From positions 1 to 64,000 of the forward strand of contig WNNJ02003225.1 of assembly GCA_012934845.2 (NCBI GenBank): a stretch of 64,000 bases of DNA, read 5' to 3'. The position numbers and the translations under genes were made by a program. Below the pieces are notes generated by a model that was not told where the DNA came from, searched no databases, and worked only from the letters and a program-made list of their open reading frames with translations. Numbering within the stretch: the first letter of the stretch is position 1; each line of letters begins with the position of its first letter. Below are positions 12,471 to 51,974 of this stretch, piece after piece. The stretch is from Pomphorhynchus laevis. Taxonomy: Eukaryota; Acanthocephala; Palaeacanthocephala; Echinorhynchida; Pomphorhynchidae.

Positions 12471-12484
12471 GTCGTCGGGAAGTT

Positions 12485-12895: not shown

Positions 12896-12896
12896 T

Positions 12897-27838: not shown

Positions 27839-29095
27839 TATTCAAAGTTGAAATCATTAACGATACTGCCACATATTGTTACAGCACACTTGTCCCCATA
27901 GCTACCGAGTATAATTTTCTTTTCAAATATTCCAAGCGTTTTACCTTCAACTTTTAGCGTGCTGTACTTGAAAAATAATTATTTTTTTGCGATTTTTTAT
28001 TTTTCACCTATTGTCTTTACATTTTATTTGTAAACACCTCTTGTATTATAATAAATTATTCTGTAAATGATCAAATACTTTAAGAAAAACATTACAATTT
28101 AATCTCCTATGCTATCAAAATATCATAACGATATGTCGTAAAATATTAGGCGAAAATAAGTGTTTTATTTTTAGTTATCCTATTAATATTATTTCTTAAA
28201 TCATACTGGAATTTTGTGTTTATACTGGCATTACAAATTTAACAAAACACCAGATTTACCTATTGTCCTTCGTTGAACTTATGAATGAAATAAATTTATG
28301 CAATTAATTTTGAAATTTAACAACAAAATATATTAATATATTTTATATTAATACAGCGATGTATTTTTACCCATAGTGCTTTTCGGCTTGGGGTACGACA
28401 ATTTCACAAATATCTACAACATTAAATTTCAGAGTTGAAAATTGAAAAAAAAATCCACGAGGTCAAAAATGTCGCAGGCGTGATTGTGTAAAGATTACGT
28501 CGAATAAATTAAATTTAAATTTAAAGTTAGTTTAGCCTACGCCATTTGTCAACCTGTTTAAGAGATATTTTCGACAAAACAGGACATACAAAGACGTGCA
28601 GCAAGAAATCACATTAGTCCGAGCAAAATCGACACATGCAATACGAAGAACGGGTATGAAAGAGAGGACGAACCGAGCAGAATTTTGAATGATATTCATA
28701 TAGCGATGCACGGCAGATAAGAATACGTTTAACAGCTTGTGGATATCTCCAAGTTATTAGCGTGTAAGCGCGTGCCAAAAATAACTCGGGATCTAAGTTA
28801 GGCATTTTGTCGCTGAAACGGCTGCAATTAGATATGTAAGCGGTTTATTAATCTTCTCGATTCTTCGAAATCGAGAAGGTTACAAATCCTCACTAATAAG
28901 TGAACTACACTACTAAGCACTGTTGTGGAACACTATCGTCGAGTATTACTTCGACGATATCCCAACTACACGTTTTATGTAACGCCATAATTATTTATCA
29001 ATTTATATTTTAATAATATCAATTCATTTATTAAATCCTTACTTCAGTAAGCTAATTAATATCATAAGCTTAAATACATCTAAGATTAAAATTTA
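27839..29095. other. Intergenic with hairpins and one doubtful ORF
   Basis: A 63-codon minus-strand frame at 28614-28805 is preceded by an acceptor-like ...AATTGCAG and is GC-richer than its surroundings. It could be a small exon, but no motif is recognised. Two hairpins follow: a 10-bp one (CTTCTCGATT/AATCGAGAAG) near 28851-28878 and CGTCGA/TCGACG near 28948-28967. The rest is AT-rich. Confidence 0.35.
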
Positions 29096-29099
29096 AAAG

Positions 29100-29960
29100 A
29101 TTATATATTTGATAAAATTAAAAAAGAAAATTACAAAATTACAAAAGGAAAGATCAAATTAATAAAGATATGTATACGGAACTTACTAAATTAAAGCATA
29201 ACTATATAATAACAACTATTGATAAAGCCAGTAATAACTTTATCTTTTGCAAAAAGCTTTATTATGATATACTAATGAAAGAGGTTAATTCTAATGATTT
29301 AAATGTAAATCCAACATATAAAGGTAGTGATTTTAGTTTAGAAACAATTATTACAAGTCATTGTTCTATAATGGATAAGAAGGGTATAAAAATTGAATCA
29401 GATAATAAAACTATACCTATATTATATTGGAATCCAAAATTACATAAAAATCCAATAAAACCTAGATTCATATTTAATGCTTTTAAATGTACATTAAAAC
29501 CACTTTCTGTCTATATGAATAAAATACTTAATTAAAGCACACTTTAAAAAATATTGCAAGGTAATCGAAATTAATACTGGTATAAAACACTATTTCAGTA
29601 TTAATTATACAAAAGAATTTTTAGAACAGACAAAAGGAATAAATTTTCAAAATATAAATACATACGATTTTAGTACGCTTTATACAAATCTAGATTTAGT
29701 AGATATTAAAGAAGCGTTAGTAAAATTAATTAATCTTATATTCGGAAAAAGATATACATATTTATGTAAAAATAATTATAACGCCTATTTAACAAAAATT
29801 AAACCATCAAGTAAATATAAATATTAGGATAAAATTGAATTAATAGAATCTTTATTATTTCGATAAGTCAAAATTATTTAAAGGTAGGGACATCTATATT
29901 TAGACAAATAAAAGTTGTTCCAATGGGTGGTAATAGTATACCAATTATAGCTGACTTGAA
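29100..29960 (+). mobile_element. PLE family 1, decayed copy C (N-terminus and RT)
   Basis: The best-preserved family-1 N-terminus is at 29170-29535: IITTIDKASNNFIFCKKLYY (the 'DK..NNFVF.CK..Y' opening block of many PLE RTs), then IPILYWNPKLHKNPIKPRFI (the 'LYWLPKLHK.P...RFI' block) and CTLKPLSVYMNKIL. After a break at 29535 the RT continues with FDFSTLYTN-type, KYKY and GGNSIPIIADL words to about 29960. Stops and a missing C-terminus make it non-functional. Plus orientation, in the intergenic region upstream of the GC island. Confidence 0.85.
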
Positions 29961-31819: not shown

Positions 31820-32090
31820 TGTAAGCCAATAGCTTACTAATTGTTACAATTCTTAAAATTTCATTATTAAATGTATTATATTTTATATTATATGGTATGC
31901 ATGAATGCTAATACAAAAATTTGGCTATTGTAAATTTAAATATGTCATCTTTAGGATATAAATTAAAAGTAGTTTTAATGATTGTTAATTTGATGCTAAT
32001 ATCATGATATATACTTTATTTATCATTAATATTGGTTTTATTAAGAATGAGGCTACCTGGATATATTTGTTCGCTTAGTGAATAAAATAA
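31820..32090 (-). mobile_element. PLE family 1 fragment (C-terminal part)
   Basis: Minus-strand remnant of the ILRIATIC / IPYNIKYN / LYRKDD region with many changes. It lies in the intron between exons 3 and 4 of the MARVEL-like gene. Confidence 0.7.
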
Positions 32091-32159
32091 TTGATTGTTT
32101 TAAAATTTAAAATTGAAATTTAAAATAAAAGCCAACTTTTATGAATTGACTAATAGATA

Positions 32160-32275
32160 TCAGACGATGTATAAGAATAAAGATTAGAAGTCACCAGGAG
32201 GAACTGCTATGCAATCATGTTTTTGTCTCTATTTCTCGACAAAACATAGAGCGGGGCCAAATATACCAAATAGAT
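32160..32275 (-). repeat. PLE family-1 structured end, subtype with TTTTGTC stem
   Basis: On the minus strand: GGCCCCGCTCTATG, then TTTTGTC...GACAAAA forming a local hairpin in the place where other copies have GGGGCC, then AACATGATTGCATAGCAG. The same subtype occurs at 38875-39000. CTATG/CATAG pairing is kept. Confidence 0.65.
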
Positions 32276-32334
32276 ATTTGGTCATCACAAATAGACCAAA
32301 TTCCATAATCATTCCAAGTCTGAAGAAAACCAAT

Positions 32335-32716
32335 AGCAAATTGTTGCAATTCTTTAAATTTCATTATTTAATGTATTATATTTTATATTATATGGTATGC
32401 ATGAATGCTCATGCAAAAATATGTTTCTTGTAAATTTAATTGTCATCTTTACGATATAAATAACGATAATTTAAATTGATGTTAATTTAATGTTCATATC
32501 AAGATATACTTTCTTTATCGTTAATATTGGTTTTATTAAGCATGAAGCTACTTGGTTAAATTTGTTTGCTTATTGAATAAAATATTTTAGAGTTAAATAC
32601 ACATATATCATCAATGCATCGAAACATTTCATATCTTTATGTAATTTAAGTTTTTTAACAGTTATTGACAAATTCATATTCTATAAAACTTAAAAATAAG
32701 TCATCTATAATTGGAC
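32335..32716 (-). mobile_element. PLE family 1 fragment abutting the satellite array
   Basis: C-terminal and palm-region remnant on the minus strand (HEHSCIPYNIKYN region at about 32385-32410, motif-C side at about 32560-32690). The satellite starts immediately after it at about 32717, so the array grew from, or inserted at, a PLE edge. Confidence 0.7.
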
Positions 32717-33030
32717 TTTTCAATTCATATAGACACTATATGTAGAGTGACGAATCTTAGCATCTGCAATAGAGCTTGGCTCGTGCTTTGTAGCTATAGA
32801 GCTTTTGCTCATGAATTGTGATTCAGCTGTATACAAGCGTGTTGCTTGTGCAGCAGCCCTAGTAAGCTGATGAAGGAAGGAACGATAGAACACGTGCTGT
32901 CCTGTGAAGCTACTGCTTACGCAAACCACACCAGATGTAAGGCTGGTCACCGGTAGAGAAGCGTGCGCTTAGTGAATTCCTTTCAGTGGTTTACTGAGAA
33001 TTAACTGCTGTCGAAGTTGTGAAGCTACAT

Positions 33031-33110
33031 AGCCGCACTGATGAGACGTTCATATAGTGATGAGCAGACTTAGGTCGAAACGCCTCATAGGAGGCTAGGC
33101 GTCTATGGTT
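33031..33110 (+). ncRNA. Hammerhead ribozyme, satellite unit 1, intact core
   Basis: Core CTGATGA at 33038-33044 and GAAA at 33077-33080. Stem II starts GAC and closes with GGTC. Stem III pairs ACGCCT with AGGCGT. The cleavage triplet is GTC at 33101-33103. Stem I pairs TATGGTT with AGCCGCA (one mismatch, two wobbles). The arrangement is that of a type I hammerhead: open at stem I, with G-C closing stem II next to the core. It should self-cleave after the GTC if the fold forms in RNA. Confidence 0.8.
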
Positions 33111-33550
33111 GGCGTATTCCGCGTTAAACTTTCCGACGAAGGTTGCTAAAAAGCATGCAGGTTTATACTTTCATGTACGTGTTAATTAAATAGTTGTATT
33201 GAAAGTCTTTCTTATTAATATAAACGTCACCAGTAGTTTTCAATTCATATAACCACTATATATGGAGTGACGAATCTTAGCATCTGCGATAGAGCTTTGC
33301 TCGTACTTTGTAGCTAGAGAGCTTTTGCTCATGTATTGTGATTCAGCTGTATACAAGCGTGTTGCTTGTTCAGCAGGCCTAGTAAGCTGATGAAGGATGG
33401 AACGATAGAACACGTACTGTCCTGTGAAGCTACTGCTTACGCAAACCACATCAGATGTAAGGCTGGTCACCGGTGAAGAAGCGTGCACCTAGTGAATTAC
33501 TTTCAGTGATTTACTGAAGATGTAGTACTGTCGAAGTTGTGTAGCTACAG

Positions 33551-33630
33551 AGCCGCACTGATGAGACTTTCATATAGTGATGAACAGACTAAGGTCGAAA
33601 CGCCTTTTTGGAGGCTAGGCGTCTATGGCT
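33551..33630 (+). ncRNA. Hammerhead ribozyme, satellite unit 2, intact core
   Basis: CTGATGA at 33558-33564, GAAA at 33597-33600, GTC at 33621-33623. Stem II GACTTT/AAGGTC gives six pairs with one G-T. Stem I TATGGCT/AGCCGCA is the best of the array, with C-G and T-A in place of the wobble seen in unit 1. That is a compensating difference. Stem III ACGCCT/AGGCGT is complete. Confidence 0.85.
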
Positions 33631-34070
33631 GGCGCATTCCGCGTTACACTTTCCGACGAAGGTTGTTAAAAAGCATGCAGGTTTATACTTTCATGTTCGT
33701 GTTAATTTAATAGTTGTATTAAAAGTTTTTCTTATTAATATAACGTCACCAGTAGTTTTCAATTCATATAACAACTATATGTGGAGTGACGAATCTTAGC
33801 ATCTGCGATAGAGCTTGGCTCGTGCTTTGTAGCTAGAGAGCTTTTGCTCATGTATTGTGATTCAGCTGTATACAGGCGTGCTGCTTGTACAGCAGCACTG
33901 GTAAGCTGATGAAGGGATGAACGATAGAACAAGTGCTGTCCTGTGAAGCTACTGCTTACGCAAACCACACCAGATGTAAGGCTGTTCATCGGTGGAGAAG
34001 CGTGCGCTTATTGAATTATTTTCAGATGTTTACTGAGGATTAAGTACTTACGAACTTGTGTAGGTACAGG

Positions 34071-34150
34071 GCCACACTGTTGAGGCCAACCTATAGTGAT
34101 GAGTAGCCTAAGATAGAAACGCTTCATTAGAAGCTAGGCCTCTATGGTTT
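34071..34150 (+). ncRNA. Hammerhead ribozyme, unit 3, inactive
   Basis: The core reads CTGTTGA (34078-34084) instead of CTGATGA. The stem II closing GGTC has become GATA, and the cleavage triplet is CTC rather than GTC. Three essential features are lost, so no cleavage is expected. Confidence 0.75.
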
Positions 34151-34589
34151 GCGCATTCCGCGTTTAACTTTCCGACGAAGGTTGTTAAAAAGCATACAGG
34201 TTTATACTTTCATGTTCGTGTTAATTAAATAGTTGTATTAAAAGTCTTTCTTATTAATATAAACGTCACCAGTAGTTTTCAATTCATATAACCACTATAT
34301 GTGGAGTGACGAATCTTAGCATCTGCGATAGAGCTTTGCTCTTACTTTGTAGCTAGATAGCTTTTGCTCATGTATTGTGATTCAGCTGTATACAAGCGTG
34401 TTGCTTGTTCAGCAGGCCTAGTAAGCTGATGAAGGATGGAACGATAGAACACGTGCTGTCCTGTGAAGCTACTGCTTACGCAAACCACATCAGATGTAAG
34501 GCTGGTCACCGGTGAAGAAGCATGCGCTTAGTGAATTCTTTTCAGTGGTTTACCGAGGATTAAGTACTGTCGAAGTTGTGTAGCTACAT

Positions 34590-34669
34590 AGCCGCACTGA
34601 TGAGACTTTCATATAGTGATGAGCAGACTAAGGTCGAAACGCCTCATTGGAGGCTAGGCGTCTATGGTT
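34590..34669 (+). ncRNA. Hammerhead ribozyme, unit 4, intact core
   Basis: CTGATGA at 34597-34603, GAAA at 34636-34639, GTC at 34660-34662. Stem II GACTTT/AAGGTC; stem III ACGCCT/AGGCGT; stem I as in unit 1. Nearly identical to unit 6. Confidence 0.83.
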
Positions 34670-35108
34670 GGCGCATTCGCGTTAAACTTTCCGACGAAGG
34701 TTGTTAAAAAGCATGCAGGTTTATACTTTCATGTACGTGTTAATTAAATATTTGTATTGAAAGTCTTTGTTATTAATATAAACGTCACCAGTAGTTTTCA
34801 ATTCATATAACCACTATATGTGGAGTGACGAATCTTAGCATCTGCGATAGAGCTTAGCTCGTGCTTTGTAGCTAAAGAGCTTTTGCTCATGTATTGTGAT
34901 TCAGCTGTATAGAAGCGTGTTGCTTGTACAGCAGCCCTAGTAAGCTGATGAAGGAAGGAACGATAGAACAAGTGTTGTCCTGTGAAGCTACTGCTTACGC
35001 AAACCACACCAGATGTGAGGCTGCTTACCGGTGGAGAAGCGTGCGCTTATTGAATTATTTTCAGATGTTTACTGAGGATGAAGTACTTACGAACTTGTGT
35101 AGCTACAT

Positions 35109-35190
35109 GGCCACACTGTTGAGACCATTTTATAGTGATGAGTAGCCTAAGATAGAAACGCTTCATTAGAAGCTAGGCCTCTATGGTTTG
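35109..35190 (+). ncRNA. Hammerhead ribozyme, unit 5, inactive
   Basis: CTGTTGA at 35116-35122, GATAGAAAC and GGCCTC show the same three lesions as unit 3. The damaged form was therefore duplicated with its neighbour. Confidence 0.75.
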
Positions 35191-35628
35191 CGCATTCCGC
35201 GTTTAACTTTCCGACGAAGGTTGTTAAAAAGCATACAGGTTTATACTTTCATGTTCGTGTTAATTAAATAGTTGTATTAAAAGTCTTTCTTATTAATATA
35301 AACGTCACCAGTAGTTTTCAATTCATATAACCACTATATGTGGAGTGACGAATCTTAGCATCTGCGATAGAGCTTTGCTCTTACTTTGTAGCTAGATAGC
35401 TTTTGCTCATGTATTGTGATTCAGCTGTATACAAGCGTGTTGCTTGTTCAGCAGGCCTAGTAAGCTGATGAAGGATGGAACGATAGAACACGTGCTGTCC
35501 TGTGAAGCTACTGCTTACGCAAACCACATCAGATGTAAGGCTGGTCACCGGTGAAGAAGCATGCGCTTAGTGAATTCTTTTCAGTGGTTTACCGAGGATT
35601 AAGTACTGTCGAAGTTGTGTAGCTACAT

Positions 35629-35708
35629 AGCCGCACTGATGAGACTTTCATATAGTGATGAGCAGACTAAGGTCGAAACGCCTCATTGGAGGCTAGGCGT
35701 CTATGGTT
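35629..35708 (+). ncRNA. Hammerhead ribozyme, unit 6, intact core
   Basis: CTGATGA at 35636-35642, GAAA at 35675-35678, GTC at 35699-35701. All three stems as in unit 4. Confidence 0.83.
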
Positions 35709-36146
35709 GGCGCATTCGCGTTAAACTTTCCGACGAAGGTTGTTAAAAAGCATGCAGGTTTATACTTTCATGTACGTGTTAATTAAATATTTGTATTGAA
35801 AGTCTTTGTTATTAATATAAACGTCACCAGTAGTTTTCAATTCATATAACCACTATATGTGGAGTGACGAATCTTAGCATCTGCGATAGAGCTTAGCTCG
35901 TGCTTTGTAGCTAGAGAGCTTTTGCTCATGTATTGCTATTCAGCTGTATACAAGCGTGTTGCTTGTTCAGCAGGCCTAGTAAGCTGATGAAGGATGGAAC
36001 GATAGAACACGTGATATCATTTGAAGCCACTACTTACGCGATCCATACCAGACGTAAGGCTGTTACTGGTGGAGAAGCGTGCACTTAGTGAATTCCTTTC
36101 AGACGTTTACTGAGGATTAAGTACTTTAGAAGTTGTGTAGCTACAG

Positions 36147-36226
36147 GGCCACACTGTTGAGACCATCTTATAGTGATGAGTATACTGAGGTCGAAATGCC
36201 ATCTTTGGAGGCTAGGCGTCTTTGGT
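36147..36226 (+). ncRNA. Hammerhead ribozyme, unit 7, probably inactive
   Basis: Core CTGTTGA (36154-36160) carries the A-to-T change. Stem II is the perfect GACC/GGTC, followed by GAAAT, GGCGTC and TTTGG. Only the core base and stem III/I details are damaged, so it is closer to the ancestral form than units 3 and 5. Confidence 0.7.
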
Positions 36227-36330
36227 AGGCGCATTTCGGGTTAAGCTATCCGACGAAGGTTGTTAAAAAGCATGCAGGTTCTTACTTTCCTGTTCGTGTT
36301 AATTAAATAGTTGCAAGGAAATTCTTTCTT

Positions 36331-37145
36331 ATAAAATTTATTAATAGTATGATTTTATATTAATTTTTTGAGATGCTAGTAGTTTCTAGCCAAATATCAA
36401 AATAATTTCTATTGTCGTTCAACTATACTGACTGTTCTTGAATATTTGAAAAATTTAAATACAGATCAGGATGGATATCTTTCTCATTCATTAATGTCCT
36501 CATTTTTCATTTTCTGAAACATATCCAACGGAGTAGAGCTTGTAATTATGACATACGTTATCTAATTGAATCGGTGAGACATGCATATGCAACGTTTTGA
36601 AAGAATTTATTCTGCCATTACAAATATATATATTCTAGTACCTTTTATTAACTCTTTCTTGTTGGATGGTTAAAATTAATTATTAAGTACCAATTATGTT
36701 TGCTTCTCTAGACCAAAATTAAAGGTTTAATTGTAAAAATAATTTAAGTTGTCGTATTTCATATTTTCAATAAATTAAAGCATTGTTCATAACAATAAAA
36801 ATCGCGCTTGTCTTCTACAAGAGATGGCGTACTAGTTAAAGTTAAGAGATGGTAATTTATAAAGCAGAAACGGAAATAAGTATTTGTACAGCAAAATCAG
36901 ATGTAGATTATAAAATCTGGGTTGCGTACAATTATACAATTTAAATCAATTAAAATAATAAGTTTTGTTGGAGAGATGTGTAATTTGTTTAACTCTGCTC
37001 TTCTGATTCAATCATTTTCTTGTTATTCTTTGAAAGTTATCCAATTAAAAAAAACCATAGCAGCAACAGCAAGAAACCCGAAAAACTAAACAGTTTAGTA
37101 TTTGTAATATAAACAGTTTAGTATTCATAAAGAATTATTACTCAC
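36331..37145. other. Intron sequence with a PLE family-2 end word
   Basis: Directly after the satellite (about 36365-36440) there is a minus-oriented copy of the family-2 terminal word: GAGATGCTAGTAGTTTCTAGC, then AAATATCAAAA and GTCGTTCAACTATA. The remainder is AT-rich with nothing recognised. Confidence 0.5.
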
Positions 37146-37439: not shown

Positions 37440-38356
37440 ATATATTTTATACTATAAATACGTACGATATAAGTACGTATTATACACATTTAGATTTAGC
37501 AAATATTAAGGCGTTAGAAAAATTAATTAGCAGCTTATATTTATCAATATAAATATATGGATAAAATTGAATTAATAGAATCCTTAAATATTTTAATAAA
37601 TCAAAATTATTTAAAAGTAGGGACATCTTTATTCAGACAAATAAAATGTGTTCCAATGGGAGGTAATAGTAGCTCAATTATAGCTGACTTATTTTTAAGC
37701 TTTATAGAATATGAATTTATTCATAACAAAAGGAATAAATTTTTAGAATATAAATACGTATGATTTGAGTACGCTTTATACACATCTAGATTTAGCAGAT
37801 ATAAATGAAGCGTTAGTAAAATTAATTAATCTTATATTCGGAAAATATACATATATATGTTATAAAAATTATAACGCCTATCTAACAAAAATTAAACCAT
37901 CAAGTAAATGTAAATATATGGATAAAATTGAATTAATAGAATCCCTAAATATTTTGATAAATCAAAATTATTTAAAAGTAGGGACATCTATATTTAGACA
38001 AGTAAAATGTATTCCAATGGGAGGTAATAGTAGCCCAATTATAGCTGATTTGTTTTTAAGCTTTATAGAATATAAATTTGTTCATAACTGTGTAAAAACT
38101 AAATCTAAACTATATAAATATATATATAAATCAGATCAGATATATGAGTAAAATATATGTTTTGATACATTGATGATATATGTGTATTTAATTCTAGCAA
38201 TTTTTATTCAATGAGCGAACGAATTTATTCAGGTAGTGTCATTATTAATTAAATCAATATTAATGATAAAAAGGGTATATATTTAAAAGTAGGGACATCT
38301 GTATTTAGACAAGTAACGGTGATCCAATGGGAGGTAATAGTAGCCCAATTATAGAT
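37440..38356 (+). mobile_element. PLE family 1 copy E with a tripled RT segment
   Basis: Inside intron 2 of the MARVEL-like gene, opposite strand. The RT segment KVGTSLFRQIKCVPMGGNSS...IADLFLSFIEY occurs at about 37607-37735, again at 37970-38090 and in part at 38283-38356. Each is preceded by some of the MDKIELIESLNILINQN helix. The first two are open over 68 and 128 codons (37557-37763, 37765-38151). After 38090 the frame reaches motif C (FDTLMIYVYLIL-type) out of frame. This is a scrambled tandem, not a working gene. Confidence 0.85.
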
Positions 38357-38874
38357 AACTTTACCTATCCCTAAATTACAAATGTTTTGCTGCAGTTATT
38401 TTAATTTTTGCACTTGACATTCTTGACATTGCATATACTGCGTTTCAACAAAGATACTATTGTATCTTATAATGATAAGTCAATATAAGTTCATTATAAG
38501 TTCACAATTCATTTAATAAATTCGAACTTCGACCAGGGAATTGTGAGATTTTCTTGCAACAAACTTTTGAACAAATTATATTTCAAAAATACAGAATATT
38601 TTTATCATTTTATATAATTTGTTATATATTAATTTGTTAATAATGAATATATCATTATAATATAATTATGTAATAAACTTATAATCAATACACAAAGTTT
38701 TAAACATACAATTTCTTTTATAAAAAGATTTCATATAAAATAAAATTTATGCGATTAGCATCAAGATTAAAATTCAGTATTTTAATTGTAAATAATAAAT
38801 TACAATTAATTTCTATTATTTTAGAAAATTCTAAAGTGATTCCTGATTATCATATAAATTCTAATAAGATACAC
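38357..38874. other. AT-rich intron sequence
   Basis: Nothing recognised apart from scattered TATA-type low complexity. Confidence 0.4.
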
Positions 38875-39669: not shown

Positions 39670-40074
39670 CTAAAATCATAGTAAAATAATAATAAATAAT
39701 TGTCATTTAAATAAAATGTATATGAAACAAAATTAAAATTAAGTAATTAAAATTAAAATTTAATATTAAACAATGAGATTTATTAAATTTTGTTTGATTT
39801 TGAAACAAAAATATTAATTATCCAAATCTTATCGAATTAAATCATTAATTTAACAATTAAATTATTAAGATAAGATTAAGCGATGAGCTTAATAAAATTA
39901 GCGAAAACTTTTCATTTTGACTGTTTCATTTTGAAGAGTTTTAATTTTGTTTGATTTTAATTCCAAATCATATCGAAATTAATAATTTAATAATTTAATG
40001 ACAGCTTCGCCGCGAAATTTAACATAAAATTAAAATAAATTTTACTTTAAATTGAAATTTAAAGTAAAAGCCAT

Positions 40075-41705
40075 TTTTAATGAATTGACTAATAAATCTG
40101 CTTTCGAAATATATTACTCGATACAGCATAGCAGCGGGGCCAAATACATGCTAATGATGTATTTCCTCTGATAAAACTATCTAGTATCTTATTCTAATAC
40201 AAAGTATATTATTTATTATCCATCCATAAAAATTTGCCACTTAAGAGTTTAAATTTATTCTTTATATTATTGTGTAGATTTATATATTTTACTATTTTCT
40301 GCTTGATGTTATTTTTATAGTAACCTAGCTTAAAATATCCATCTATTAAATTATTTAAATGATTTTGAAGAAAGCCAAAATCATTTCATATTGTTGCAAT
40401 TCTTAAAATTTCATTATTTAATGTACTATATTTAATATTATATGGTATTATATGGTATGGTAAGGTTTAAATTTATTTTTAATATTATTGTGTTGATTTA
40501 TATATTTTACTATTTTCTGTTTGATGATATGTTTATGGTAACCTAGTTTAAAATATGTATCTATTAAATTATTTAAATGATTTTGAAGAAAGCCAATATC
40601 ATTACATATTGTTGCAATTCTTAAAATTTCATTATTTAATGTATTATATTTTATATTATATGGTATGCATGAATGCTCATGCAAAAATATGTTTGTAAAT
40701 TTAAACATGTCATCTTTACGATATAAATTAATAGTAGTTTTAGTTAATGTTAATTTAATGTTCATATCTAGATATACACCTTCTTTATCATTAATATTGG
40801 TTTTGTTAAGAATAAGGCTTTCTGGATAAATGTGCTCACTAATTGAATAAAAATTATTAGAATTAAATACACATATATCATCATCAGAATAAGAATTAGA
40901 GGTCATCAGGAGGAACTGCTATGCTATCAGGTTTCGGCCCCTAACTCCTCTACCCAACATAGCAGCGGGGCAAAATACATGCTAATGATGTATTTCCTCG
41001 GCAATAACTATCTAGTATCTTATTCTAATACAAAGTATATTATTTATTATTCATAAAAAGTTGTCACTTAAGAGTTTAAATTTATTTTTAATATTATTGT
41101 GTTGATTTATATATTTTACTATTTTCTGTTTGATGATATGTTTATAGTAACCTAGTTTAAAATATGTATCTATTAAATTATGTAAATGATTTTGAAGAAA
41201 GCCAATATCATTACTGTTGCAATTCTTAAAATTTCATTATTTAATGTATTATATTTAACATTATATGGTATGCGTGAATGCTCATGCAAAAATTAGTTTC
41301 TTGTAAATTTAAATATGTCATCTTCACGATATAAATTAATAGTAGTTTAAATCAATTTTAATGTAATGCTCATATCTAGATATTAACAACGACATATTAA
41401 CGACGATATTTTAAGATATTGGCTTGAAAAAAGCCAATATCATTACATATTGTTGCAATTCTAAAAATTTCATTATTTAATGTACTATATTTTATATTAT
41501 ATGGTATTATATGGTATGGTAAGGTTTAAATTTATTTTTAATATTATTGTGTTGATTTATATATTTTACTATTTTCTGTTTGATGATGTGTTTATAGTAA
41601 CCTAGTTTAAAATATGTATCTATTAAATTATGTAAATGATTTTGAAGAAAGCCAATATCATTACATATTGCTGCAATTCTTAAAATTTCATTATTTAATG
41701 TAATA
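40075..41705 (-). mobile_element. Cluster of three truncated PLE family-1 copies
   Basis: All minus, head to tail, in intron 1 of the MARVEL-like gene. The best is at 40448-40906: 152 open codons starting within motif C (DDDICVFNSNNFY) and covering LILNKTNINDKEGVYLDM, LYRKDDMFKFTNIFLHEH and ILRIATICNDIGFLQNH, then a 3' extension FKLGYHKHIIKQKIVKYINQ. Shorter copies lie at about 40985-41400 and 41425-41705. Structured ends sit at 40125-40180 (partial) and about 40885-41000 (full, with GGGGC/GCCCC arms and CATAGCAG/CTATG arms). Confidence 0.85.
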
Positions 41706-42344
41706 ATTACTAATGTTAGATAATTATATTATTTGAACTCTACTGAAGACAAAATCAACAAATCAACAATTTGTATCAAAACAGTTTTTTTAAATACGCT
41801 GATAAAAATTACGTTGCTACTTCATTTAAGATACTAGTATACATTATAAACTGTAATGATTTTAATTGGTTCTGTTTATTTGTCAAGTCAAACTATTAGC
41901 TAAACATCATGCAAAGTTTATGAGTACAAGAAGAATTTATATTTTGTTGATAATAATTTGTATCTGGAAGAATTCATTATTTTTTACGATAAAATTAATA
42001 ATTTTATAATAAATACTAAAACCATAATCTTCTTCCATTTCAAATATAAAGTTATTACAGGAAAGAAGCAGAAATTATCCTTTATTAGATAAAAATTCTA
42101 TATTTCGATAGCTCATGCTATCAACACTAGGATTACAAAGTAATCCTGATGTGATAATCATCATCAGTAATAAAATATAAAATATAAAAGAATAAAATAT
42201 AAAAAATATAACTTTAATTGCTTAACTTAATATTTTAATTTATTAATTTAATTTATAAATACATTAATATTTCAATTTATTAATTTAATGTATCAATATT
42301 GCAATTTGTTAATTGAATTTATAAATACATATTTTATAAAATAT
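41706..42344. other. AT-rich intron sequence
   Basis: No feature recognised. A short tandem of an AATTTATTAATTTAATTTAT type lies around 42230-42320. Confidence 0.4.
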
Positions 42345-43135
42345 GATGACCTCTAATAAGAATTAGAGATCATCATGAGGAACTTATATGCTATCAGGTT
42401 TCGGCCCCTAACCTCGACCCAACATAGCAGCGGGGCCAAATACATGCTAATGATGTATTTCCTCTGATAAAACTATCTAGTATCTTATTCTAATGCAAAG
42501 TATATTATTTATTATCCATCCATAAAAATTTGCCACTTAAGAGTTTAAATTTATTCTTTATATTATTGTGTTGATTTATATATTTTACTATTTTCTGCTT
42601 GATGTTATTTTTATAGTAACCTAGTTTAAAATATGTATCTATTAAATTATTTAAATGATTTTGAAGAAAGCCAATATCATTTCATATTGTTGCAATTCTT
42701 AAAATTTCATTATTTAATGTATTATATTTTATATTATATGGTATGCATGAATGCTCATGCAAAAATATGTTTCTTGTAAATTTAAATATGTCATCTTTAC
42801 GATATAAATTAATAGTAGTTTTAGTTAATGTTAATTTAATGTTCATATCTAGATATACATCTTCTTTATCATTAATATTGGTTTTGTTAAGAATAAGGCT
42901 TTCTGGATAAATGTGCTCACTAATTGAATAAAAATTATTAGAATTAAATACACATATATCATTATTAAAATTTCATTATTTAATTTATTATATTTTATAT
43001 GATTTACTGATATCATGCAAAAATATGTTACTGATATCATGTAAAAATATGTTTCTTGTAAATTTAAATATGTCATCTTTACGATATAAATTAATAGTAG
43101 TTTTAGTTAATGTTAATTTAATGTTCATATCTAGA
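42345..43135 (-). mobile_element. PLE family 1 copies, one nested in another
   Basis: Structured end at 42355-42460, then the C-terminal PLE region (42540-42960). At 42961 it switches into a second partial copy of the same region (43000-43130), with the NLQETYFYM variant also seen in copy B. A 75-codon frame (42849-43076) is a fusion across this junction, not a gene. Confidence 0.8.
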
Positions 43136-43468
43136 ACATAACGACGACATTTAATTTTTTTATAAAAAAATTATTTTCGATTTTTCTATTATAATCTTAT
43201 CTATATATTTTTGGGCTTCTGAAAGTAATGCAACTTTATGTTAGAATTTTTTATTATTATTTAATATTATTATTCATATTTTAATAATTATTTATTATAT
43301 ATACATATATTTAATATTATTTATGCAAATTATACAAATTCTCAGTCGTGAGTATTTTGTATATCGATTAGTGTTACGTCTTTAGTGTTACGTCTTTACT
43401 ATCGTCTTTAGTGTTACGCTATTTTTGACTTCTTTAGAGTGGGTTAACATTTTATTACAATAACTTAC

Positions 43469-43624
43469 AATAATGGCGATATTTAGAAATCCTTTTAAGG
43501 ATCGGATATAATTCACATTATCATTCGATTCAGGTACGTTCTGTGCTGGTATTGGACTTGTGGAAGTAGCTTCGACATTCTTTATATCATCAAACACATC
43601 GTTATTTTCACCGCTTGCCCACAT
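43469..43624 (-). CDS. MARVEL-like membrane protein, exon 1 (start)
   Basis: Exactly 52 codons from ATG (43624) to the consensus donor CCATTATT|GTAAGT, phase 0. The cytoplasmic N-terminus is acidic and Ser/Pro-rich (MWASGENNDVFDDIKN...). It leads into NVNYIRSLKGFLNIAII, the start of the first membrane helix. The 'YIRSLKGFLKI'-type entry is characteristic of MARVEL domains. Spliced to exon 2 the helix reads FLNIAII-GLLILGFISAV without break. The whole gene would encode about 217 residues over 12.2 kb. It is easy to miss because every exon is short and the introns are full of PLEs. Confidence 0.65.
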
Positions 43625-44043
43625 TGTGTACGATTACTGTAGGTTTCTAAAGGATATTTGAGTATATATATCACGTTATTTTAAGCATATATTGTATTAA
43701 ACATTTATTTGTTTGACGTTATATTGCTGAGTCTTAATCAGGCTTAGACGATAAAATACATAATTTACATGTAAATAAATCAAATCAGATAGCTTATTCT
43801 ATAAATTTTATAGACTAGTATAGATTAGTATAGACTTTATAGATTAAATAATAACTTGTCAGTAGAACAGATTATATCAGATCACTGAATATACGTATTT
43901 CACACGATAAATAAATAATAATAAAGATAAATAATATATAACTATATAAGATTTTATATAATTTTTATTTATATTTAGTTAAAATACAAATTGAAATTTA
44001 AAATAATTGTTATTAATTGAATAATAAATAACATACATTGTAT
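43625..44043. other. Upstream region of the MARVEL-like gene
   Basis: AT-rich, so the promoter of the minus-strand gene is presumably here. Its end carries TCAGATCACTGAATATACG-type text similar to the PLE-associated 'GTAGACTCAGTTATCTGATC' tail. Confidence 0.35.
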
Positions 44044-44655
44044 CAGAATAAGGATTAGAGGTCATCAGAAGAAACTGCTATGCTATCAGGTTTCAGCCTT
44101 TATTCCTCATATAAATATATGATTAATATTCCTCGTATTTATCTTTTATTATAATGTTGTATCAAAAATACAGTATTTTTTGGTTTCAGTATTATAAATA
44201 TAAAAAATTAAAAATAATAAATAATTATTTAATATTTTATACAATTAATATATAATCAATTTTTATGAATCGACTAATAAATAACAGACGATTTATCAGA
44301 ATAAGGATTAGAGGTCATCAGAAGAAACTGCTATGCTATCAGGTTTCAGCCTTTATTCCTCATATAAATATATGATTAATATTCCTCGTATTTATCTTTT
44401 ATTATAATGTTGTATCAAAAATACAGTATTTTTTGGTTTCAGTATTATAAATATAAAAAATTAAAAATAATAAATAATTATTTAATATTTTATACAATTA
44501 ATATATAACGATAAAATTTATAATTAAAATTTAAAATAAAAATCAATTTTTATGAATCGACTAATAAATAACAGACGATTTATCAGAATAAGGATTAGAG
44601 GTCATCTGGAGGAACTGCATGTTAGAAAGATTCGGGCCCTATTCCTCTAATTATT
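44044..44655 (-). repeat. Tandem PLE family-1 terminal repeats, about 255-bp period
   Basis: The segment 44044-44268 is repeated nearly exactly at 44299-44510 (ATCAGAATAAGGATTAGAGG start, then CTGCTATGCTATCAGGTTTC, ending TACAATTAATATATAA). A third, diverged start lies at 44585-44655. PLEs are known for tandem 'pseudo-LTR' ends, and this looks like such an array stripped of its coding region. The GGCCCC/GGGGCC arms have decayed here. Confidence 0.75.
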
Positions 44656-44819
44656 TACTACTAAAATATTTATTTTTTATTTAAAACTGATTTTTATTTT
44701 ATATTTTTAATTTTTAAAAATAATAGATAAATAATTTTAAAGGATTTTATACAATTAATTTTTATAACAATAAAATTTAAAGTTTAAATTAAAAAAGTCA
44801 TTTTTAATAAATAACATAC

Positions 44820-45310
44820 AATGTATCGGAATAAAGATTAGAGGCCATCAAGAGAAAGTGCTATGTTTCCAGGTTTCGGCGCATACGCAACATAGCAGCC
44901 GGGCCAAATGCATGCTAATGACGTATGATAAAAAATTTTATGATAAAATTTGCTTATCATAGGAAAATATTTTCCTATGATAAAATTTGCTTATATGGTA
45001 TCTTGTTATGATACAAAGTATATTATTTATTATTCATCCATAAAAACCTTGTGCTTAAGAGTTTAAATTTATTTTAAATAATATTTTGTTGATTTCAGAA
45101 TAAGGATTAGATTTATTATTGATTAATTTATTATTTTAAATAATAAATTACTAAATAAGGATTAGAGGCAATCAGAAGGAACTGCTATATTATCAGGTTT
45201 CGGCCCCTATTACTCGAAACAGCATATCAACATGGGCAAATAAACGGCAATGACGTATTTCATCTGATGAAATTTGATTATCTGGTGTATCTTATTCTAA
45301 TACAAAGTAT
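44820..45310 (-). repeat. Two more PLE family-1 terminal segments
   Basis: At 44825-44935: GGCCTCTAATC, CTATG/CATAG arms and GGCCCGGC. At 45110-45300: a second copy with GGGGCCGAAACC on the minus strand and decayed CTGCTATG. Between them lies a perfect 30-bp palindrome (44954-44983). Confidence 0.6.
44954..44983. repeat. Perfect 30-bp palindrome
   Basis: TTATCATAGGAAAAT followed at once by its exact reverse complement. It is flanked by a 12-bp direct repeat, GATAAAATTTGC, on each side, as expected if a strand switched template during synthesis. Confidence 0.85.
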
Positions 45311-45639
45311 ATTATTTATTACGCATCAAAAAAATTTTCCGCTCTAGCATTTTAATTTTATAATATTTTGTTAATTTTTATATTGTAAATTAAACACTTT
45401 GTTTTTGTGTTGAAACTAAATGTTCACAACATTTTTTCTGGGTTTCCTACAATTATTACAACCAAATGTTTCAGCTTAATTTAATTTTTCCAACCAAATC
45501 ATTGGAAATTCGAGGATAATTCAATGTTCGAAAACTAGGATCGGCATTCTTCTTAATTCTAAATTTTAATTTCCGTTCAAGAAACTTTCCAAATAATTAC
45601 GGAAAAAGTATATAACTATCCATACTTGCCACCACCAGA
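45311..45639. other. AT-rich spacer
   Basis: Nothing recognised. Part of it (about 45505-45560) recurs at 46240-46300 (ATTCGAGGATAATTCAATG, TTCGAAAACTAGGATCGGC). Confidence 0.4.
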
Positions 45640-46640: not shown

Positions 46641-48685
46641 TTCTTAATTCGGAAAATGTTTATTTTGATAACAATTTTGAAACTGTAATTTAAATTTCAG
46701 ATGTCCCTGACGATGACTAATATCATTAGTCAAAAATTTGGATCACAAAAACAATTCTTTATATTTGCAATTTGTAAATTATATTCAAGAATGGTGTTGA
46801 AGAAACTAAATAGGGCGCAGAAATATTTATTTAATAATATGGTCAAATACACTAAGGTCATAATTACATGTATAGCTATAGAATTTTAAACTCTAGATGA
46901 AATCCGATATTATTGTTTGCTATTTATATGTCATTGGTTTTTAAGAATCGTCAGTAACTTATTTACATCAAGTGAAAGTGATTGTGAAGCCCTTGGTAAG
47001 GCAATGTAACTCCCTTTTATTTGGGCAATGAATTTGTTGTTTAATTTGGACTAATTCGCTCTTGTCCGCATTTATTCATTAAAATTTATTTGCGCAATGC
47101 ACCTTTCGACTTAGTCAGGTTACAGAGAAGAAAACCAAATATCGGTAGAAACGAATTATCTTCTCAAGTTCCAGCTGTGATTTAAGACCAAGGTTAAAGT
47201 TCTTAGCTGGTAATCAAAGACTTAGCTAGTCTTTATAGTCATAATATGGTATCTTCCTCCCAACACCACAAAAAAACAGATATATGCCTAGAATATACGT
47301 AGAATCATACGTTATGGTTAGTTACTAAAATGAGTGGTAGAGATTTGAAGAACATTTATATGCAAAACGAGAAAGAATTCAAGAGATTTATTTATCTACA
47401 TTTGAGTAAAGAACTTCATTTGTGACAATCTATTTGAATTAATTTCGATGAAATGATGGTCTTGAGGATCCATAATCATATACGATAAATGAATCATATA
47501 CGATAAATGAAAGTTATTAAGAAGAATATCATTCTAGTATCTATAAAAAGGATACGTATAAATAAATTAAACTATTTTCCACCTGAGAGCTTCAGCATTT
47601 TCTCACGAATAATACATTCACTACTCAGACTTCCAAAAACTAAAACACACATCACCTACCTCTAATTTTATAATCATGCAATCTTTCTCCAAACACCAAG
47701 AGTTAAGAAAGATAAAATTATCATTTTTAATCTCTAATTAATTCATCTTTAGAACAGAATGATGAAATTACTTTCCTTTATATAAAAACTACAAGTAGAT
47801 ATAGATATATTCAATAGATATATTAAATATTTAATATATCTATTGAATATATATCCTTGCTTACGACTATGACTATCTAAACAAATGCTTAAAATGCTTA
47901 AACAAATGGCTTTATTTACTCCTTCCTGTATTTAGTGTTTCATTTTTCATAAAGATTAAAACAGTAAAAAAATCATATGATATTACCTGAATAGTTCGTT
48001 TTTCACTTTTAGAAACTGTTTTTCAACTCGTGCGTGTATTATATTATTCAACGCATTCATATTTATAGAGTATACTATACACAGTACACTTATAGAGTGT
48101 ACTGTGTATTAATAGTCCACTGTATCAAATAAATTTGATAAATGTTAACAAAATGGTAAAAACACCGCACTGTTATTTTTATGACAAAGTTTGATAACTG
48201 AAAACTAAAATGTAAACTCGCGATTTTGCAAAAGATAAAATAAAAAATTGGTGTAGTGCACAGAAGTTAACATTTGTACACATTTTTTGTGAAAAGTGTA
48301 AACTGATATACTGTCAAAATATATAATTTAAGACAACGAAAAAATGTTTTATAGTGATGAATTTAGTATACTTTGATTGCAGCAGTAAATTCATGAACTC
48401 TGCAAGTTTTTTACCTGATATTATTATCTGATATTAATATCTGATATTGACAATTCGTAATTTAAATATTTCTTGTCAGCTTAGCTTACTAAGTCTAAAT
48501 TAAAAATAAAGATAAATAATTATAGATAATGAAAAATATATAAGATTTTGTTTAATTTATATTTATACAAAGTTAAAATGTAAAGTAAAAATTTAAATAA
48601 TCAATTTTTATAAATAATATAATATTAACAAAAATAAATAATATATAACAAAAATTGGTTAATAGTGAAAGGTTAAATACATCAA
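46641..48685. other. Intergenic, AT-rich
   Basis: No gene is supported. On the minus strand near 47105-47135, CCTGACTAAGTCGAAAGGTGC has the 'CTGA-stem-CGAAA' look of several retroelement ends. A 48-bp perfect palindrome is at 47805-47852 and a 12-bp hairpin (ACACAGTACACT/AGTGTACTGTGT) near 48076-48108. Confidence 0.4.
47805..47852. repeat. Perfect 48-bp palindrome
   Basis: ATATATTCAATAGATATATT... is symmetric about 47828/47829 with no spacer and no mismatch. It is the longest exact palindrome seen in the window. A chance AT-rich palindrome of this length is very unlikely. Confidence 0.85.
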
Positions 48686-48689
48686 AAGG

Positions 48690-50615
48690 TTAAAATTTGG
48701 AAAGATTATATATTTAATGAAATTAAAAAATAAAATAACAAACAATTATAAACGAAAAGGTCAAATTAATAAAGATATGTATACAGAACTTACCAAATAA
48801 AAGTACGACTATATAATAACAACTATTGATAAAGCCAGGAATAACTTTGTCTTCATATGCAAAAAACTTTATTATGATATGTAAATGAAAGAAGTTAATT
48901 ATAATGATTTGACTATAAACACAACATATGAACGTAGTGAGTTGAGTTAAGAAACAATTATCACAAGTCACTGTTCGTTGATGGATAAAAAGGGTATAAA
49001 TGTTGAATCAGATAATAAAACTATACCTATATTATATTGGAATCCAAAATTACATAAAAATCCAATAAAACCTAGGTTCATATGTAGTGCGTTTAAATGT
49101 ACATTAAAACCACTTTCTGTCTATATGAATAAAATACTTAAAGTAATTAAAGCACACTTTTAAAAATATTGCAAGGTAATCGAAATTAATACTGGTATAA
49201 AACACCATTTCAGTACTAATTCTACAAAAGAATTTTTAGAACAGGGAAAAGAAATAAAATTTCAAAATATAAATACTTACGATTTTAGTACGCTTTATAC
49301 AAATTAAAGAATCCTTAGAAAAATAAATTAATCTTATATTCGGAAATTTATATACATATTTATGTTATAATAACTATAACGCATATCTAACAAAAATTAA
49401 ACCATCAAGTAAATAGAAATATTTGGATAAAATTGAATTAATAGAATCCATTAATATTTTGATAAAACAAAATTATTTAAAGGTAGCGACATCTATATTT
49501 AGACAAATAAAAGGTGTTCCAACTGAAGGTAATAGTAGCCCAATTATATAGCTGACATATTTTGAAGCTTTATGGAATATGAATTTGATCATAACTGTGT
49601 AAAAAATAAATCTAAATTCTAAATTATATACAGGATTATATATTATAAATTAAAATTATATATTTAAAATTATATATAATTCTAAATTATATACATATGT
49701 TATAATAATTATAACGCCTATCTAACAAAAATTAAACCATCAAATAAATATAAATATATGGATAAAATTGAATTAATAGAATCCTTAAATATTTTGAAAA
49801 ATCAAAATTATTTAATAGTAGAGACATCTATATTTAGACAAGAAAAAGGTGTCCCAATGGGTGGTAATAGTAGCCCAATTATAGCTGACTTGTTTTTAAG
49901 CTTTATAGAATATGAATTTGTTTCATAACTGTGTAAAAACTAAATCTAAACAATATAAATATATGAAATATATGTTTCAATAACATTGATGATATATGTG
50001 TATTTAATTCTAATAATTTTTATTTAATTAGTGAACAAATTTATCCAGAAAGCTTTTTTTTTAACAAAACCAATATTGATGATAAAGAAGGTGTATATCT
50101 AGATATGAACATTAAAATTAACATTAACTAAAACTACTATTAATTTATACCGTAAAGATGACATATTTAAATTTACAAGAAACATATTTTTGCATGAGCA
50201 TTCATGCATACCATATAATATAAAATATAATACATTAAATAATGAAATTTTAAGAATTGCAACAATATGTAATGATATTGGCTTTCTTCAAAATCATTAA
50301 AATAATTTAATAGATACATATTTTAAACTAGGTTACTATAAAAATAACATCAAGCAGAAAATAGTAAAATATATAAATCAACACAATAATATAAAGAATA
50401 AATTTAAACTCTTAAGTGGCAAATTTTTATGGATGGATAATAAATAATATACTTTGCATTAGAATAAGATACTAGATAGTTTTATCAGAGGAAATACATC
50501 ATTAGCATGTATTTGGCCCCGCTGCTATGTTGGGTCGAGGTTAGGGGCCGAAACCTGATAGCATATAAGTTCCTCCTGATGACCTCTAATTCTTATTCTG
50601 ATACATTGTATGTTA
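48690..50615 (+). mobile_element. PLE family 1, two partial copies joined, ending in the structured terminus
   Basis: The first piece (48690-49620) covers the N-terminal DKA.NNF block (with stops), IPILYWNPKLHKNPIKPRFI (48978-49163) and RT palm words. The second (49680-50450) restarts inside the palm (KYMDKIELIESLNIL, GGNSSPIIADLFLSF). It then runs through the C-terminal block to GKFLWMDNK-stop. It is followed at 50440-50610 by the conserved 3' structure, GGCCCC (50515-50520) ... GGGGCC (50544-50549). It gives the clearest view of the family-1 layout: N-block, RT, C-block, then the RNA structure just after the stop codon. No GIY-YIG domain appears. Confidence 0.87.
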
Positions 50616-50984
50616 TTTATTAGTCAATTCATAAAAATGACGTTTATTTTTTATTTCAGTTTATAATTCATCTTGATATAAATTATATAAAATCTTATAA
50701 CAATTATTTATTATTAATTAATATTTTATTATTTAACTATTTAATTTTTATTTAGCATTATTTTTAATTTACAAAATAAAATACGTAGACTCAGCTTATT
50801 TAATCGTCTATTATTTATTAATCAATTCATAAAAGTTGGATTTAATTTTAAATTTTTATTTTATAAATAAAAATTATATAAAATATAAAAATTATACCGA
50901 TTATTAAAAATTATAAGTTAAGTGATATCTTTTATAAAATTACGAAATTATTTATAATTATCTGTAAAAAGATAGATACAACGT
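50616..50984. other. PLE family-1 tail region, AT-rich
   Basis: Contains TTATTTATTAGTCAATTCATAAAAAT-type and 'CGTAGACTCAG' phrases that follow the structured end in several copies (for example 62050, 63010-63170). They probably belong to the element's terminal repeat. Confidence 0.5.
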
Positions 50985-51566
50985 AGACTCAGTTGGCGAA
51001 TTGTTTATTATCCATTCATAAATTTTTTCCCTTATGAGTATAAATTTATTTTTAATAATATTGTGCTAATTTATTTTACGATGTTCTGTTTTTTTTAAAG
51101 TAACCTAGTTTAAAATATGTAAATTTCAAATTATTTTTGTTAAATTTAAATTAAAATGATTTTGAAGAAAGCCAAAATCATTTCATATTGTTGCAATTCT
51201 TAAAATTTCATTATTTAATGTATTATATTTTATATTATATGGTATGCATGAATGCTCATGCAAAAATATGTTTCTTGTAAATTTAAATATGTCATCTTTA
51301 CGATATAAATTAACAGTAGTTTTAGTATGTATCTATTAAATTATTTAAATGATTTTGAAGAAAGCCAATATCATTACATATTGTTACAATTCTTAAAATT
51401 TCATTATTTAAAGTATTATATTTTATATTATATGGTATGCATGAATGCTCATGCAAAAATATGTTTCTTGTAAATTTAAATATGTCATCTTTATGATATA
51501 AATTAATAGTTGTTTTAGTTAATGTTAATTTAATGTTCATATCTTGCATGAAGCTTTGCATCGGGT

Positions 51567-51650
<84 letters not shown>

Positions 51651-51835
51651 ATATTTTACTATTTTCTGCTTGATGTTATTTTTATAGTAACCTAGTTTAA
51701 AATATGCATCTATTAAATTATTTAAATGATTTTGAAGAAAGCCAATATCATTACATATTGTTGCAATTCTTAAAATTTCATTATTTAATGTATTATATTT
51801 TATATTATATGGTATGCATGAATTAGATCAGATAA
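50985..51835 (-). mobile_element. PLE family 1, three C-terminal fragments around a (TA)n tract
   Basis: Minus-strand copies of the C-block at about 51060-51320, 51322-51561 (open for 79 codons: LYHKDDIFKFTRNIFLHEH..., ILRIVTICNDIGFLQNH) and 51645-51835. They are separated by a short break and by the microsatellite. All lack RT motifs and are dead. Confidence 0.8.
51568..51644. repeat. (TA)n microsatellite
   Basis: About 38 uninterrupted TA dinucleotides between two PLE fragments. Likely length-variable. Confidence 0.95.
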
Positions 51836-51974
51836 CTGAGTTTACGTATTTTATACTCTATATTAGTAAAAAAAGATAAATAATAAATAATTATATTTAT
51901 AATTTTTTAAATAGTTGATAATGATCCATTTATCGAAAAAGAATTATTGGATCTGGATCAAAAGGAAAATTTTA
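51836..51974. other. Short AT-rich spacer
   Basis: Contains ATTAGATCAGATAACTGAGTTTACG-type text, the PLE family-1 tail phrase, in inverse orientation. Confidence 0.4.

Follow-up and report, generated by a model that had tools for sequence, protein, structure and literature searches.

A dispersed 520-bp repeat with a hammerhead motif

In a 64,000-nt stretch of the acanthocephalan Pomphorhynchus laevis (assembly GCA_012934845.2, contig WNNJ02003225.1, positions 1 to 64,000; the window), seven tandem units of about 520 bp carry a hammerhead ribozyme motif. We consider it fairly likely that this unit is a non-coding retrozyme of the metazoan type, which descends from an ancestor with a complete type I hammerhead, integrates in the manner of Penelope-like elements and formed the array by dimer duplication. 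It would be an unusually long retrozyme of this type, probably moved by Penelope-like machinery. The features underlying this reading can be read directly from the DNA: the motif, two zones of 3' ends, an inverted arrangement of copies, hybrid joins to Penelope fragments, and near-identical dimers.

The seven units lie on the forward strand, the last one being slightly short, with starts at 32717, 33237, 33756, 34276, 34795, 35315 and 35834 (spacings 520/519/520/519/520/519), bearing out the array of ~520-bp repeats described in a first-pass annotation of this DNA. Unit positions are numbered from the first base 3' of the predicted hammerhead cut. The G+C content of the array is 41%, and no stop-to-stop open reading frame (ORF) of at least 110 amino acids is present within 32717–36335. 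Units 4 and 6 are identical across 519 bp and units 3 and 5 share 95.8% identity, so the array appears to have been enlarged by a recent dimer duplication, barring an assembly effect; unit 7 is the most divergent, with 85–88% identity to the other units.

All seven units contain a box resembling CTGATGA, followed by GAAA and by a triplet that reads GTC or CTC. The core is intact in units 1, 2, 4 and 6 (CTGATGA, GAAA and GTC), at exactly the positions annotated before (33038, 33558, 34597 and 35636), while units 3, 5 and 7 read CTGTTGA, corresponding to the core change A6U, and in units 3 and 5 the first stem II pair and one stem III pair are additionally broken. The claim of a hammerhead in every unit holds for the four intact cores, the other three units retaining traces only. 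The stem I pairing proposed at the same time (TATGG with CCGCA) had overlooked an A.C mismatch at the second pair, which is present in all four intact units. The stem II and stem III regions of the window units are 32 nt and 23 nt long, respectively. The array and its hammerhead regions are as follows:

32717..36335, + strand: seven-unit array, running from unit position 133 at its 5' edge to unit position ~115 at its 3' edge
33032..33109, + strand: hammerhead region of unit 1, with the core CTGATGA at 33038, an A.C mismatch in stem I and a 3-pair stem II; cut predicted 3' of 33103
33552..33629, + strand: hammerhead region of unit 2, with the core at 33558 and an A.C mismatch in stem I; cut predicted 3' of 33623
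34071..34148, + strand: degenerate hammerhead of unit 3, reading CTGTTGA, with breaks in stems II and III
34591..34668, + strand: hammerhead region of unit 4, with the core at 34597 and an A.C mismatch in stem I; cut predicted 3' of 34662
35110..35187, + strand: degenerate hammerhead of unit 5, reading CTGTTGA, with breaks in stems II and III
35630..35707, + strand: hammerhead region of unit 6, with the core at 35636 and an A.C mismatch in stem I; cut predicted 3' of 35701; unit identical to unit 4 across 519 bp
36148..36226, + strand: degenerate hammerhead of unit 7, reading CTGTTGA

A relaxed hammerhead descriptor gave four matches in this array, compared with five in 10 Mb of first-order random sequence (one strand). 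At other loci, 14 of its matches fell within arrays (13 loci) and two, in L020, lay in no array, so the descriptor is not free of chance matches.

Descent from a type I hammerhead

Thirty-six further stretches bearing the family were examined and 74 hammerhead regions were aligned, of which 64 were kept; the rows dropped were the two of L017, which mirror those of L018, and eight others that had indels or truncated ends, and L036 contributed no row. The majority consensus of the 64 copies has the canonical core (CUGANGA, GAA, A15.1-U16.1 and H17) with GTC, and all three stems: stem I GCCACA/TGTGGT (6 pairs, the last being G.U), stem II GACC/GGTC (4 pairs) and stem III ACGCCT/AGGCGT (6 pairs). 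Unlike the window copies, the consensus of the dispersed copies has a perfect stem I (TGTGG/CCACA), and since this is confined to the dispersed copies it provides a check independent of how the motif was spotted. Among 60,000 dinucleotide shuffles of the consensus unit (one strand, a single repeat family), none reached 5/4/5 pairs and two reached 3/3/3. The whole core is present in 31 of the 64 aligned copies, and core and stems together (stem I 5/5, stem II at least 3/4 and stem III at least 4/5 pairs) are kept in 13 copies from 11 loci, all outside the window. Because the consensus of dispersed copies contains a complete type I hammerhead (6/4/6 pairs), descent of the 520-bp unit from such a ribozyme is well supported.

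Head-to-head copies and two zones of 3' ends

At least 139 matches to the family were found genome-wide (40 scored of 904 first-look candidates). The loci fetched were the best matches to a 551-bp query, with very short copies under-represented, and the sample left out the family places C420 and C2530. In 37 records, window included, 41 clusters comprised 65 pieces, the 5' ends of which were scattered and the 3' ends of which fell at unit positions 90–160 in 44 cases. A head-to-head pair was present in 20 of the 41 clusters and a tail-to-tail pair in none. With L017/L018 and L035/L042 each being one place seen twice, 18 of the head-to-head clusters are independent, and in four of the 20 (L017, L018, L023 and L031) the inverted piece measures just 49–64 bp. 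Both outer ends lay within the 3' zone in seven of the 20. The window itself holds a second locus of the family with this arrangement:

12448-12931, − strand: 520-bp family piece, head-to-head with the next
12888-13498, + strand: 520-bp family piece
13729-13926, + strand: further 520-bp family piece

The 3' ends were called with strict alignment scores; lenient local alignment overran into the AT-rich flanks. Among 39 junctions, 24 ended at or before position 120, none at 121–133 and 15 at 134–148, which places the ends in two zones, 94–120 and 134–148 nt after the predicted cut, with one further end at 82. These junctions are those among the 65 piece ends that fell in or near the 3' zone, so that the absence of ends beyond 148 results from selection; the gap at 121–133 does not. 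L021 supplied two junctions with the same flank, and L010, L032 and L038, which scored short through internal deletions with the tail present, were counted as long solely in the one-per-pair estimate (18/39). One long and one short end were found in six of seven resolved pairs (L012, L016, L021, L023, L025 and L041; not L044). The longest piece amounted to 1.3–2.2 units in 27 of the 41 clusters, and multi-unit pieces were contiguous, with no reverse transcriptase ORF between units.

Taken by its copies, the family is best described as a dispersed retroelement and not as plain satellite DNA. The earlier description as a satellite array was right about the tandem units and understated the dispersal, and the kinship in way of life with small hammerhead-bearing retroelements, proposed in the same annotation, is supported.

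Joins to Penelope fragments

The 5' edge of the window array abuts a fragment of a Penelope-like element in the opposite orientation:

32323..32717, − strand: 5'-truncated Penelope-like fragment (element positions 2844-3257), head-to-head with the array 5' edge

Such head-to-head joins to Penelope fragments, within 3 bp at the 5' side, were found in 2 of 21 simple arrays (the window, at 32717, and L034), and a weaker head-to-head Penelope piece lies 14 nt off the array in L040. Same-orientation Penelope pieces lie 21 and 42 nt off the 5' side in L011 and L039, respectively. At the 3' side of simple arrays, no Penelope join within 3 bp was found. Given how densely Penelope ends occur across 242 kb, 0.07 such joins would be expected (probability of two or more, 0.002, computed after the joins had been seen).

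The Penelope-like element is abundant (12348 first-look candidates, 150 scored). In L053, it consists of a 908-aa ORF between 274-bp pseudo-long terminal repeats (pseudo-LTRs). The 908-aa protein aligns with proteins bearing a near-N-terminal GIY-YIG domain, one of which has a sub-threshold reverse transcriptase match behind it; we take GIY-YIG followed by reverse transcriptase to be the order of the 'Naiad' type. A Pfam search with the 908-aa protein itself gave no domain. No hammerhead was found in the fetched Penelope loci by a strict descriptor, which also misses the window copies (stem I mismatch).

Penelope-like fragments with the N-terminal GIY-YIG order make up ~11% of the 242 kb examined and are dense in the window (including 29031-29958, 37543-38361, 31823-32717, 40049-45387 and 48656-54701), where near-perfect tandem duplications of 218, 253 and 193 bp at 40242-40666, 44005-44508 and 51150-51519, respectively, overlap Penelope matches. 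At the ORF/pseudo-LTR junction of L053 (4232-4288), the interleaved complementary stretches GGCCCC/GGGGCC and GCTGCTATG/CATAGCAG suggest a pseudoknot. A fragment of a reverse transcriptase of the long interspersed nuclear element (LINE) type (PF00078) lies at 6737-7309 on the reverse strand of the window, and similar sequence was seen by eye in L057, a hint that the two contigs come from one organism.

Proposed mechanism of integration

We propose that RNA of more than one unit, either a multimer left uncut or a circle that is copied through more than one turn, would be picked up by a Penelope-like protein, which would open the target DNA. Reverse transcription would begin in one of two zones, which lie ~94-120 and 134-148 nt past the cut site. 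With extension from both target strands, two 5'-truncated complementary DNAs (cDNAs) would meet head-to-head. In the window array, one partner of the join would have been the Penelope fragment, and the seven-unit array would subsequently have been enlarged by tandem dimer duplication. That a Penelope-like protein moves the element, that RNA is the template and that self-cleavage ever took place are inferences; the case for Penelope-type integration of a retrozyme is good though indirect.

Other hammerhead families of the genome

The Rfam hammerhead family RF00163 gave at least 65 matches in the genome, 62 of them above the cut-off and often at ~295-bp spacing (73 scored of 40608 candidates), and none of the 65 listed lies on the contig of the window. 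A ~296-bp family (L056-L060 and other contigs) has a canonical hammerhead above the Rfam cut-off and occurs in tandem and head-to-head copies. A further hammerhead family, of 464 bp (L059 716-1326, the same place as L061 1417-2027; L062 933-1977; L063 1480-2042), had 1425 first-look candidates, 39 of which were scored; its hammerhead in L059 was not reported by Rfam at an expect value (E) of up to 0.1. The two families are alike over 92 nt around the hammerhead (73%, E 5e-13), and neither resembles the 520-bp unit beyond chance (E 0.25 for the ~296-bp and 1.1 for the 464-bp family).

Like the 520-bp unit, both have a type I hammerhead and tandem, mostly head-to-head copies; unlike it, both have short stems II. 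Among neighbours in opposite orientation, head-to-head outnumbered tail-to-tail arrangements 4 to 1 in the ~296-bp family (counted on 50 of 65 places, from contigs with more than one) and 9 to 2 in the 464-bp family. The outer 3' ends of the ~296-bp family in five loci fell at 113–130 nt after the cut in five of six cases and at 174 in the sixth, and those mapped in the 464-bp family were scattered (157, 160, 220 and 438, L059 and L061 being the same place).

The best alignment of the 520-bp unit to the ~296-bp hammerhead (that with E 0.25) runs through a near-core GTGATGA at 33575-33601, 19 nt downstream of CTGATGA, with equivalents in later units, and the long stem II of the unit may have originated by insertion or duplication. 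A second CTGATGA lies inside GTAAG...CTTAC at 32862-32920 and at the equivalent place in later units, and has the look of a three-way junction without the GAAA half of a hammerhead.

Evaluation of the retrozyme interpretation

Several results count against the proposed retrozyme and its mode of integration. Searches with the Rfam covariance models, which the first-pass annotation had named as a check, found no hammerhead in the window, the array or further family loci: there were no matches in the whole window at gathering scores, no hammerhead in 32600-36400 at E of up to 10, and none in 16 further family loci and one Penelope locus at E of up to 5. In an alignment of 63 distinct rows, 86.8% of cells in the hammerhead stems were paired, compared with 87.0% in shuffles, and thus no excess of covariation was seen, in a test of low power because copies decay after insertion. 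Conservation of the 12 core positions did not exceed that of randomly drawn positions with the same base (p 0.17), and the inactivating core change G5A was present in 10 of the 64 copies, at six loci (L035 and L042 being one place twice). In computed folds of the consensus, forcing the hammerhead carried a penalty, relative to the ensemble, of 6.1 kcal/mol when the 78-nt domain was folded by itself and of 12.5-13.1 kcal/mol when flanks were included. On the side of integration, at least one outer end lay outside the 3' zone in 13 of the 20 head-to-head clusters (some being cut by the edge of the stretch), the occurrence of one long and one short end per pair was by itself not significant (p 0.06), a weak 27-bp Penelope match spans the 3' junction of L028 (E 6e-4), and target-site duplications were not resolvable because 3' ends are too variable and flanks too AT-rich. 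Finally, the 3' end of the abundant Penelope-like element is sharp, with 21 of 41 matched pieces ending at 270-275 and 25 of 41 at 268-275 (L051 and L054 being the same place in this count); five other pieces run on into the element body or beyond.

Since the abundant element has one sharp 3' end and not two zones, it may not be the mover, and another Penelope family may act instead; GIY-YIG matches elsewhere in the genome (at least 75 among 150 scored) leave room for one. The identity of the mover is the weakest link in the Penelope argument. The covariance result corresponds to one of the three grounds for refutation listed in the first-pass annotation; alone it is not taken as a refutation of the hammerhead, because the dispersed-copy consensus restores a complete one. 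RF00163 misses the 520-bp family and yet matches at least 65 places elsewhere in the same genome, which shows that an entire repeat family can escape Rfam hammerhead models even where these detect another. The type III family RF00008 was not found, and no control genome gave a match to it either. Rfam rows for CRISPR-DR50, MIR7723, twister-P1, MIR6140 and MIR5998 were below the cut-off of each family and were rejected. RNAalifold, applied to the alignment of 64 rows, gave no pairs.

Activity of the ribozyme and alternative explanations

Folding calculations gave a cloverleaf-like structure, not a hammerhead, as the best fold of the consensus. The cost of forcing the hammerhead fold was 1.8-4.1 kcal/mol in the two other hammerhead families of the genome (12 and 9 pairs forced, compared with 15 here), and in the window units with an intact core it amounted to 5.5-10.9 kcal/mol relative to the ensemble of all folds. 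The window ribozymes are probably impaired or dead, and self-cutting by RNA of the 520-bp family today appears doubtful. The prediction that array transcripts cut themselves into 520-nt monomers is not supported: the four intact cores alone would give pieces of 520, 1039 and 1039 nt, and all four of these units combine the stem I mismatch with the energetically costly hammerhead fold. CUACAGG, 5' of stem I, could pair over 7 bases with CCUGUAG of the stem II region, a pairing with no more than weak covariation; it may be a contact between the loops of stems I and II or equally a competing helix. Pseudoknots of this kind have been reported for all hammerhead types (PMC3088659).

It is quite possible that the unit is a relic, that is, the same retroelement with a hammerhead that is dead in every current copy, spread by uncut multimeric RNA and with a dispensable ribozyme. 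The core that is not preferentially conserved, the unfavourable fold and the G5A copies all agree with this, as does the finding that hammerhead mutants of an Anolis Penelope element insert normally in vitro (PMC11167929). The 13 copies that kept core and stems at 11 loci speak against a dead ribozyme throughout. The units have decayed evenly along their length, to ~10% divergence from the consensus, and such flat conservation among genomic copies is also expected of an active retroelement because its copies decay neutrally after insertion.

It is unlikely that the hammerhead is bistable and protein-assisted, with a stable cloverleaf-like fold that keeps the RNA uncut until a Penelope-type protein flips it to cutting late in the cycle. 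Each of the three hammerhead helices would have a competing partner in the more stable cloverleaf-like fold, the RNA would stay uncut and hence long enough as a multi-unit template, and a Penelope-type protein bound at the start zone, ~95-148 nt downstream, would trigger the switch to cutting. If the bistable model were true, it would explain an intact multi-unit template in an element with self-cutting RNA, retrozymes and Penelope pseudo-LTRs would share one cis-module (a hammerhead followed by ~100 nt, a start site and a tail that may be absent), and animal retrozymes in general would be moved by Penelope-like proteins.

That the 520-bp unit is not an independent retrozyme but the solo pseudo-LTR of an autonomous Penelope-like element that has been lost or escaped notice is unlikely. 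Head-to-head pairs, two 3' end zones and a hammerhead ~100-145 nt before the 3' end are indeed parts of a pseudo-LTR (PMC11167929, PMC3846280), but every mapped multi-unit piece runs from unit to unit with nothing between, and the unit has no convincing similarity to the fetched Penelope element (best E 0.04).

We consider it quite unlikely that the hammerhead is a chance resemblance within a structured non-coding repeat without ribozyme history, whose true fold would be the stable cloverleaf-like structure. The sole pairing with an excess of double changes is a hairpin, GCCYC/GRGGC, inside stem III (26 double-changed cells compared with 15.6 in shuffles, an excess possibly inflated by kinship of the copies; T-A in 28 rows and C-G in 19). 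This hairpin cannot coexist with the inner part of stem III and also suits the cloverleaf (30 double-changed cells compared with 16.0 in shuffles); a stem III redrawn with the covarying hairpin inside was rejected, being costlier than the original (8.7 compared with 6.2 kcal/mol for the 78-nt domain). The Rfam negatives and the chance-level similarity to the other two hammerhead families also fit a chance resemblance. Against it stand the shuffles, none of which matched the consensus at 5/4/5 pairs (with no correction for the choice among repeat families), and the presence of two other hammerhead repeat families in the same genome.

Ordinary satellite DNA, spread by unequal crossing-over and segmental copying, would account for the recent tandem duplication seen in units 4/6 and 3/5, but is highly implausible given the many clusters with a longest piece of 1.3-2.2 units, the confined 3' and scattered 5' ends and the frequent head-to-head joins.

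Comparison with known systems

The retrozyme interpretation that we prefer places the 520-bp family beside the metazoan non-LTR retrozymes described in PMC7229834, with which it shares tandem non-coding repeats, a type I hammerhead, low G+C content, an organization as dimers to multimers and co-existence with Penelope-like elements. It differs from them in its unit length (519–520 bp compared with 150-450 bp), in its long stem II and stem III regions (32 and 23 nt) and in being invisible to Rfam. Target-site duplications of retrozymes, when present, exceed 4 bp (PMC7229834). The family is also similar to pDo500 of Dolichopoda cave crickets, which consists of ~500-bp repeats with a hammerhead, makes up ~5% of the genome of one species and cleaves in vitro (PMC2837043); the 49-bp ribozyme of pDo500 is described there as conserved for function, whereas conservation in the 520-bp family is flat.

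With Penelope elements (Anolis PAc, PMC11167929; rotifers, PMC3846280), the family shares head-to-head copies, perhaps two 3' end positions and, in the case of PAc, a hammerhead that precedes the 3' end. Among inverted copies of rotifer Penelope elements, the head-to-head orientation is the one seen most often (PMC3846280). The Anolis protein cuts and extends both strands, and two start sites account for an optional tail of 30-40 bp; the hammerhead of the element cut only when protein was added and is dispensable for insertion (PMC11167929). In the Anolis element, ~85-92 nt separate the cut, 26 nt into the ORF, from the main start, 111-118 nt into it (PMC11167929), compared with 3' ends at 94-120 and 134-148 nt after the cut in the 520-bp family. 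Unlike Penelope-like elements, the 520-bp unit is without a reverse transcriptase and is itself the whole element.

Animal retrozymes encode no protein. In PMC7229834, Penelope elements are named as a strong candidate mover only, on the basis of shared features and co-existence. Among the titles listed in literature searches, none suggested a link between retrozymes and Penelope elements via head-to-head joins, which is no proof of absence. In the 520-bp family, the link is drawn from junction structures, and head-to-head pairs, two 3' zones and hybrid joins make the proposal of a Penelope mover countable in any genome.

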